From NCBI RefSeq assembly GCF_902686445.1, contig NC_062220.1, positions 98,146,143-98,210,142 of the forward strand: a DNA stretch of 64,000 bases, in the 5' to 3' direction. Below the pieces are notes generated by a model, which saw only the letters and a list, made by a program, of their open reading frames with translations, was not told the origin of the DNA and ran no database searches. Shown piece by piece: positions 25,966 through 26,624 of the stretch (the stretch's first letter is position 1; each line of letters starts with the position of its first letter). The DNA is from Sciurus carolinensis (taxonomy: Eukaryota > Chordata > Mammalia > Rodentia > Sciuridae). The position numbers and the translations under genes were made by a program.

Positions 25966-26624
25966 ACGGTCTGCTAAATCCCGAAGCAGAAGCCCATATT
26001 CATCTAGGCATTCGAGATCTCGTAGCAGGCACAGATTGTCTAGATCCAGAAGTCGTCATTCTAGCATTTCTCCCAGCACACTAACTCTGAAGAGTAGCCT
26101 GGCAGCTGAATTGAACAAGAATAAAAAAGCACGAGCTGCAGAGGCAGCACGAGCTGCAGAAGCAGCTAAGGCTGCAGAGGCAGCTAAGGCTGCTGAGGCA
26201 GCTGCCAAAGCTGCAAAGCCTCAAACACTTCTACACCTACCAAGGGGAACACAGAAACTGGTGCCAGTGCATCACAAACAAACCATGTGAAGGATGTGAA
26301 GAAACTTAAAATTGAGCATGCACCTTCTCCTTCAAGTGGTGGAACTTTAAAAAATGACAAGGCAAAAACAAAGCCACCTCTTCAGGTAACAAAGGTAGAC
26401 AATAACTTGATTGTAGATAAAGCCACCAAGAAAACAGTTGTAGTTGGGAAGGAGAGTAAATCTGCTGCTACAAAGGAGGAACCAGTATCTCTTAAAGAGA
26501 AAACCAAACCACTTACACCAAGCATAGGAGCTAAGGAGAAGGAGCAACATGTGTCTTTAGTGACTTCTACGTTACCACCATTACCTTTGCCTCCTATGCT
26601 GCCTGAAGATAAAGATGCTGATAG
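25966..26624 (+). CDS. CDK13: CDK13 exon 2: RS-domain end, Ala-rich helix, Lys/Pro linker; frame broken
   Basis: The first base completes Arg405, then the RS domain continues ([20 protein letters not shown]). Next come [20 protein letters not shown] and an alternating Ala/Glu/Ala/Lys segment (about residues 452-489) that should form one charged helix. The frame set by exon 1 then fails: after Lys489 (AAG, 26216-26218) it yields 23 unrelated residues and TGA at 26288-26290. Moving one base restores the expected protein to the exon end ([20 protein letters not shown] and onward, ending LPEDKDAD). The exon is 659 nt where splice phases require 660, so one base is missing, most simply one G of AAGGCC. 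The donor is ATAG/gtaagt. Taken literally, the product would be 512 residues with no kinase domain. Confidence 0.95.
26216..26221 (+). other. CDK13: Frameshift site 1 in CDK13 exon 2 (apparent 1-nt deletion)
   Basis: The text reads AAGCCT where CDK13 should read Lys-Ala-Ser (AAG GCC TCA). Upstream codons are in phase with exon 1 and downstream codons are in phase with the exon 2 donor; the two phases differ by exactly one base here. The site follows a repetitive GCT/GCA/AAG stretch. This is either a consensus error or a real indel; the sequence cannot tell which. Confidence 0.9.

Follow-up and report, generated by a model that had tools for sequence, protein, structure and literature searches.

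Two one-base deletions in adjacent exons of an otherwise intact CDK13 gene, probably introduced by the assembled consensus

The stretch of DNA analysed here, a window of 64,000 nt, very probably carries an ordinary and functional mammalian CDK13 gene, its source being probably a squirrel, from which the assembled consensus has dropped one base in exon 2 and another in exon 3. A preliminary description of this DNA had reported the first of these two frame breaks and proposed that either the assembly had lost a base or the sampled allele was null. The evidence now favours the loss of a base in the assembly, on the basis of a second deletion that does not compensate the first, of exons that are open, of GT/AG splice borders and of a kinase part that is unchanged.

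Structure of the CDK13 gene in the window

CDK13 is present as a multi-exon gene with conserved splice phases, of which exons 1 to 6 fall within the window (Table 1) and which is expected to continue beyond its 3′ end. GT/AG borders are found at all six donors and all five acceptors, the phases fit except that exon 2 and exon 3 each lack one base, and the remaining exons (1, 4, 5 and 6) are open. No further stop or splice loss was seen across exons 1 to 6, the rest of the gene lying past the end of the window. Exon 1 is taken to resemble human CDK13 exon 1. The possibility of a retrocopy is ruled out by the presence of the introns. About 50 nt 5′ of the start codon, a short upstream reading frame, ATG GCC AAG ATC TGA (MAKI*), occupies positions 1993-2007.

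Table 1. Features of CDK13 in the window, with positions counted from its first letter.
Feature	Position	Strand	Description
Exon 1, coding part	2057..3270	+	1214 nt (404 codons + 2 nt); open; ATG at 2057; donor CTCAG|GTGAGT
Exon 2	25966..26624	+	659 nt, 1 base short of flanking phases; CACCAG|ACGG ... GATAG|GTAAGT; from AG acceptor and tblastn
Ala-rich coding tandem repeat	26135..26219	+	3.8 copies of an 18-nt unit (26135-26203) and a short 8-nt row (26200-26219); Tandem Repeats Finder
Frame break 1	26216..26221	+	AAGCCT, 1 base missing; from frame switch in tblastn and translation
Premature TGA in shifted frame	26288..26290	+	334 nt upstream of exon 2 end; from joined-exon translation
Exon 3	33228..33397	+	170 nt where phases require 171; acceptor AAG|CTTAAG, donor AA|GTATGT; from tblastn in two frames
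Frame break 2	33274..33281	+	AAGAACTC in place of expected Lys-Lys-Leu; 1 base missing; from frame switch
Exon 4	34773..34912	+	open; kinase domain begins here
Exon 5	37129..37299	+	open
Exon 6	63748..63937	+	open; HRDIKCSN catalytic loop

The introns contain four weak matches to the Rfam tRNA model (10928-10997, 27410-27469, 30479-30537 and 31656-31727), scoring 29.3 to 38.7 bits against a gathering score of 29, and three of the four are also called by ARAGORN. These look like copies of tRNA-derived SINEs rather than tRNA genes. Furthermore, open frames are present at 35821-36141, 48690-49004 and 51721-52047 (- strand), which we take, by eye and from their motifs, to resemble fragments of LINE-1 ORF2; none of these three candidates was matched by Pfam at a threshold of E 0.01.

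Two uncompensated frame breaks

Translation of the joined exons gives exactly what the preliminary description had stated for exon 2, namely the site at which the frame entering from exon 1 fails, the TGA that it reaches and a product of 512 residues. The length that it gave for this exon, one nucleotide below the need of the splice phases, was likewise confirmed from the rebuilt exon borders and, because the flanking phases demand a multiple of three, one base is missing. When a hand-typed human CDK13 protein sequence was used as the tblastn query, exon 2 matched in two frames, the first from 25967 to 26218 (97.6% identity over 84 aa) and the second from 26215 to 26622 (94.1% over 136 aa). 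At the site of the break AK[AV]S is read in 12 of 12 relatives, aligned in what is here called alignment A1. The lost base would be one of a Lys-Ala pair, either G (AAG GCC) or A (AAA GCC), a choice that the window does not decide. Since both spellings encode Lys-Ala, the proposal that reads showing AAGGCC would reveal a consensus error was too narrow.

The expected protein had also been described as continuing intact in the next frame. This holds to the end of exon 2 and into exon 3, where a second base is lost at break 2, a frame break of the same kind as the first that had been overlooked. Here GAGAAGAACTCCGATG reads EKNSD..., where all 12 relatives of A1 have EVEKKLR or EAEKKLR; one frame runs up to 33276 and another from 33279, leaving one Lys codon short by one base. 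The two breaks, which lie in adjacent exons, remove two bases in total and do not compensate each other, corresponding to two one-base deletions per 2,544 coding nt.

The Ala-rich repeat of exon 2 ends at break 1, which sits on the repeat edge, as determined with Tandem Repeats Finder on positions 25900-26700; break 2, as judged by eye, is outside any tandem repeat. The length of the Ala-rich repeat varies among the A1 relatives and is greater in the window than in P0001. The repeat is mostly absent from the monotremes, marsupials, birds and reptiles of the alignment, and perhaps it grew in eutherians, among which it may be variable.

Identity and constraint of the remaining gene

Apart from the two breaks, the gene has the appearance of a CDK13 orthologue, with a kinase nearer to CDK13 than to CDK12. 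A protein kinase domain is found by Pfam in the predicted protein, whereas the part of exon 2 in the downstream frame gave no Pfam match. The kinase part, represented in the window by the N-terminal part of the domain only, is identical to human CDK13 (PDB 5efq_A) in every one of the 154 residues aligned; this chain scores 340.7 bits vs 322.2 for the best CDK12 chain listed.

The 12 relatives of A1 were picked from the best 120 of 1036 proteins matched. In comparison with them, exons 3-6 have no residue private to the window among 223 and exon 2 has 4 among 207, a count that omits 12 exon 2 repeat residues without counterpart, the X at break 2 and exon 1, and in which “private” is a coarse term, P0001 (97% identical) being the sole relative closer than 89%. 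Given these counts, nothing suggests that constraint has been relaxed. An established pseudogene was rejected, no excess of private replacements (exons 2-6) and no lost splice sites being found.

Errors in the consensus as the preferred explanation

Both frame breaks occur with no other signs of decay across the six exons, which is the pattern by which errors in a consensus would be recognised. We infer that both bases are present in the DNA of the animal. Their loss probably came about when noisy reads, or a heterozygous repeat collapsed beside short A/G runs, left one-base deletions uncorrected. A mechanical translation of the assembly would then end at 512 residues, and the real transcript of the animal would be in frame and give full-length CDK13. 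Passages of a study on long-read assemblies state that errors in these are mostly indels, which falsely truncate ORFs, and that collapsed alleles with internal repeats of unequal length produce false frameshifts (PMC8445201).

Several observations count against errors of this kind. Two of them in 2.5 kb would require a rather poor consensus. In fact, if both breaks are errors, the implied consensus quality is about Q31 (95% interval about Q25 to Q40), an estimate that takes all errors as indels at an even rate, and the probability of at least two errors in 2,544 coding nt is 0.72 at Q30, 0.027 at Q40 and 0.0003 at Q50. The signature of truncated homopolymers is absent, long runs being present in the window (up to 34 T); exon 1, GC-rich and 1,214 nt long, is unbroken; and a repeat edge adjoins break 1 only. 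For the fox squirrel, the available text on a mixed-platform draft genome gives a BUSCO completeness of 83.74%, with 10.04% fragmented (PMC8664420), a figure with no link to this window. Literature searches found nothing on squirrel CDK13, the only match concerning zebrafish torpor, and nothing on single-base frameshift errors or polishing in a squirrel genome assembly.

Protein searches give weak support to errors of the consensus. The 5-mers of the shifted tail occur in none of the 143 proteins listed (the best 120 of 1036, 14 of 14 and 9 of 9), and are found only in P0121, the translation of the window itself. This missing match to a truncated protein is weak evidence because, although CDK13 of vertebrates is represented in the database, none of the proteins listed is named as coming from a sciurid or another eutherian, because the search results are clusters at 90% and because candidate scoring was limited, only the 7,982 to 7,992 candidates that shared the most words being scored per search; furthermore, the proteins listed are not independent, many being isoforms from the same birds. 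Both expected motifs, one of exon 2 and one of exon 3, are present in 123 of 135 proteins, P0121 included in this total, and absent in P0121, P0124 to P0133 and P0135 (named CDK12). Among these 12, the LAAELNK segment of exon 2 occurs only in P0121 and LLADLP only in P0132, and most of them look like matches to other proteins or to repeat-like stretches. In nine further protein matches, five have the exon 2 motif, one the exon 3 motif and three neither.

Alternative explanations

It is unlikely that the sampled animal has one working CDK13 allele and one with a real frameshift (in exon 2, in exon 3 or in the two together), the mRNA of which would be open to nonsense-mediated decay. The assembled sequence does lack a base at both sites, and break 1 borders a tandem repeat in the coding sequence, a position where real indels arise too; the repeat unit is, however, of 9 or 18 nt, so that slippage by whole units keeps the frame, and the loss of one base is no change of unit. 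The premature stop is 334 nt upstream of the exon 2-3 junction, and a stop placed so far upstream of an exon junction is expected to elicit nonsense-mediated decay. Human carriers of frameshifts exist, as described in passages of PMC11911135 and PMC7410148, and according to the latter, a review, a number of CDK13 loss-of-function variants are recorded in gnomAD. Since gnomAD holds such variants (PMC7410148), healthy carriers of a heterozygous loss may exist, and one frameshift in the heterozygous state would not be an absurd proposal. This reading nevertheless requires that a single haplotype was disabled twice independently, or that one hit is real and the other an error, and homozygous loss of CDK13 has not been seen in live-born mice. 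In the Cdk13 tm1b colony, as described in parts of PMC11911135, which is bred from live heterozygous mice, there were no live-born homozygotes among 866 mice genotyped, and defects were seen in 8 of 47 heterozygous hearts at E15.5.

The preliminary description had regarded the affected allele, if real, as null for the kinase. This does not follow from break 1 alone, because an AUG at 26596, in weak context, precedes the part that encodes the kinase domain and shares the frame of the expected protein; if only break 1 were real, initiation at this codon could in principle yield a product that is shortened at its N-terminus but keeps the kinase domain whole. With both breaks, the frame opened by this AUG runs for 116 codons, and none of the frames that start with an AUG 3′ of the stop covers the glycine-rich loop (GEGTYG) within exons 1 to 6 as assembled, so that the allele would be null for the kinase only if both breaks were real.

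It is very unlikely that the window holds a recent, intron-bearing duplicate of CDK13 at the start of its decay, with a working gene elsewhere in the genome. Two disabling lesions, with the structure intact in all other respects, are what a duplicate of very recent origin could show. Substitutions, however, usually outnumber indels, and two neutral indels should have been accompanied by several replacements; this counts against a duplicate in which exons 3-6 carry no private replacement in 223 residues and the kinase part agrees with the human one throughout.

It is highly improbable that both deletions are real and that CDK13 is disabled twice on one haplotype in this individual mammal or in its lineage.

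Finally, restoration of the frame by an exonic intron, by another junction near 26216 or by a –1 ribosomal shift is scarcely credible, as it would be needed twice and as, among the 62 GT...AG pairs (at least 60 nt) across the exon 2 break that restore by length alone an open frame through the exon, the best has a total score of –0.2 and a donor score of –2.2 vs 0.8 to 8.3 in the six real donors (simple home-made matrix, scan limited to exon 2) and would remove 368 nt, the Ala-rich part included. A frame-keeping splice junction near 26216, which the preliminary description had named as the finding that would overturn it, was not found by this simple scoring within exon 2. Programmed –1 ribosomal frameshifting was rejected, no slippery heptamer of the form X XXY YYZ occurring between 25967 and the stop in the frame of exon 2.

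Implications for annotation

If the two breaks are errors of the consensus, as we prefer, the matter is one of annotation only: an automatic pipeline would give a truncated or low-quality CDK13 and perhaps a false gene loss, and, with two errors within 2.5 kb of coding sequence, any further gene loss that this assembly seems to show would have to be supported by reads. Should the deletions instead be real and have reached fixation, they would show, surprisingly, that a mammal can dispense with CDK13; in such a species the role of a kinase whose homozygous loss left no live-born mice would have to be taken over by CDK12.

Comparison with known systems

The closest comparison is with human CDK13 (PDB 5efq/7nxj). 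The protein encoded by exon 2 is 94-98% identical to the hand-typed human sequence and, like the human protein, that of the window has an SR-rich N-terminus and an Ala-rich segment; the difference is that exons 2 and 3 of the assembly are each short by one base. The alleles of the human CDK13 disorder and the mouse alleles Cdk13 tm1a/tm1b, in the portions of PMC11911135 and PMC7410148 that deal with them, are variants from known patients and animals, whereas here two putative deletions are found in one consensus. The assemblies discussed in sections of PMC8445201 resemble the present case in that small indels disrupt an otherwise conserved ORF, some of them at internal repeats; the errors reported there, in Trypanosoma brucei, were corrected with reads, whereas CDK13 is represented here by a consensus sequence only.
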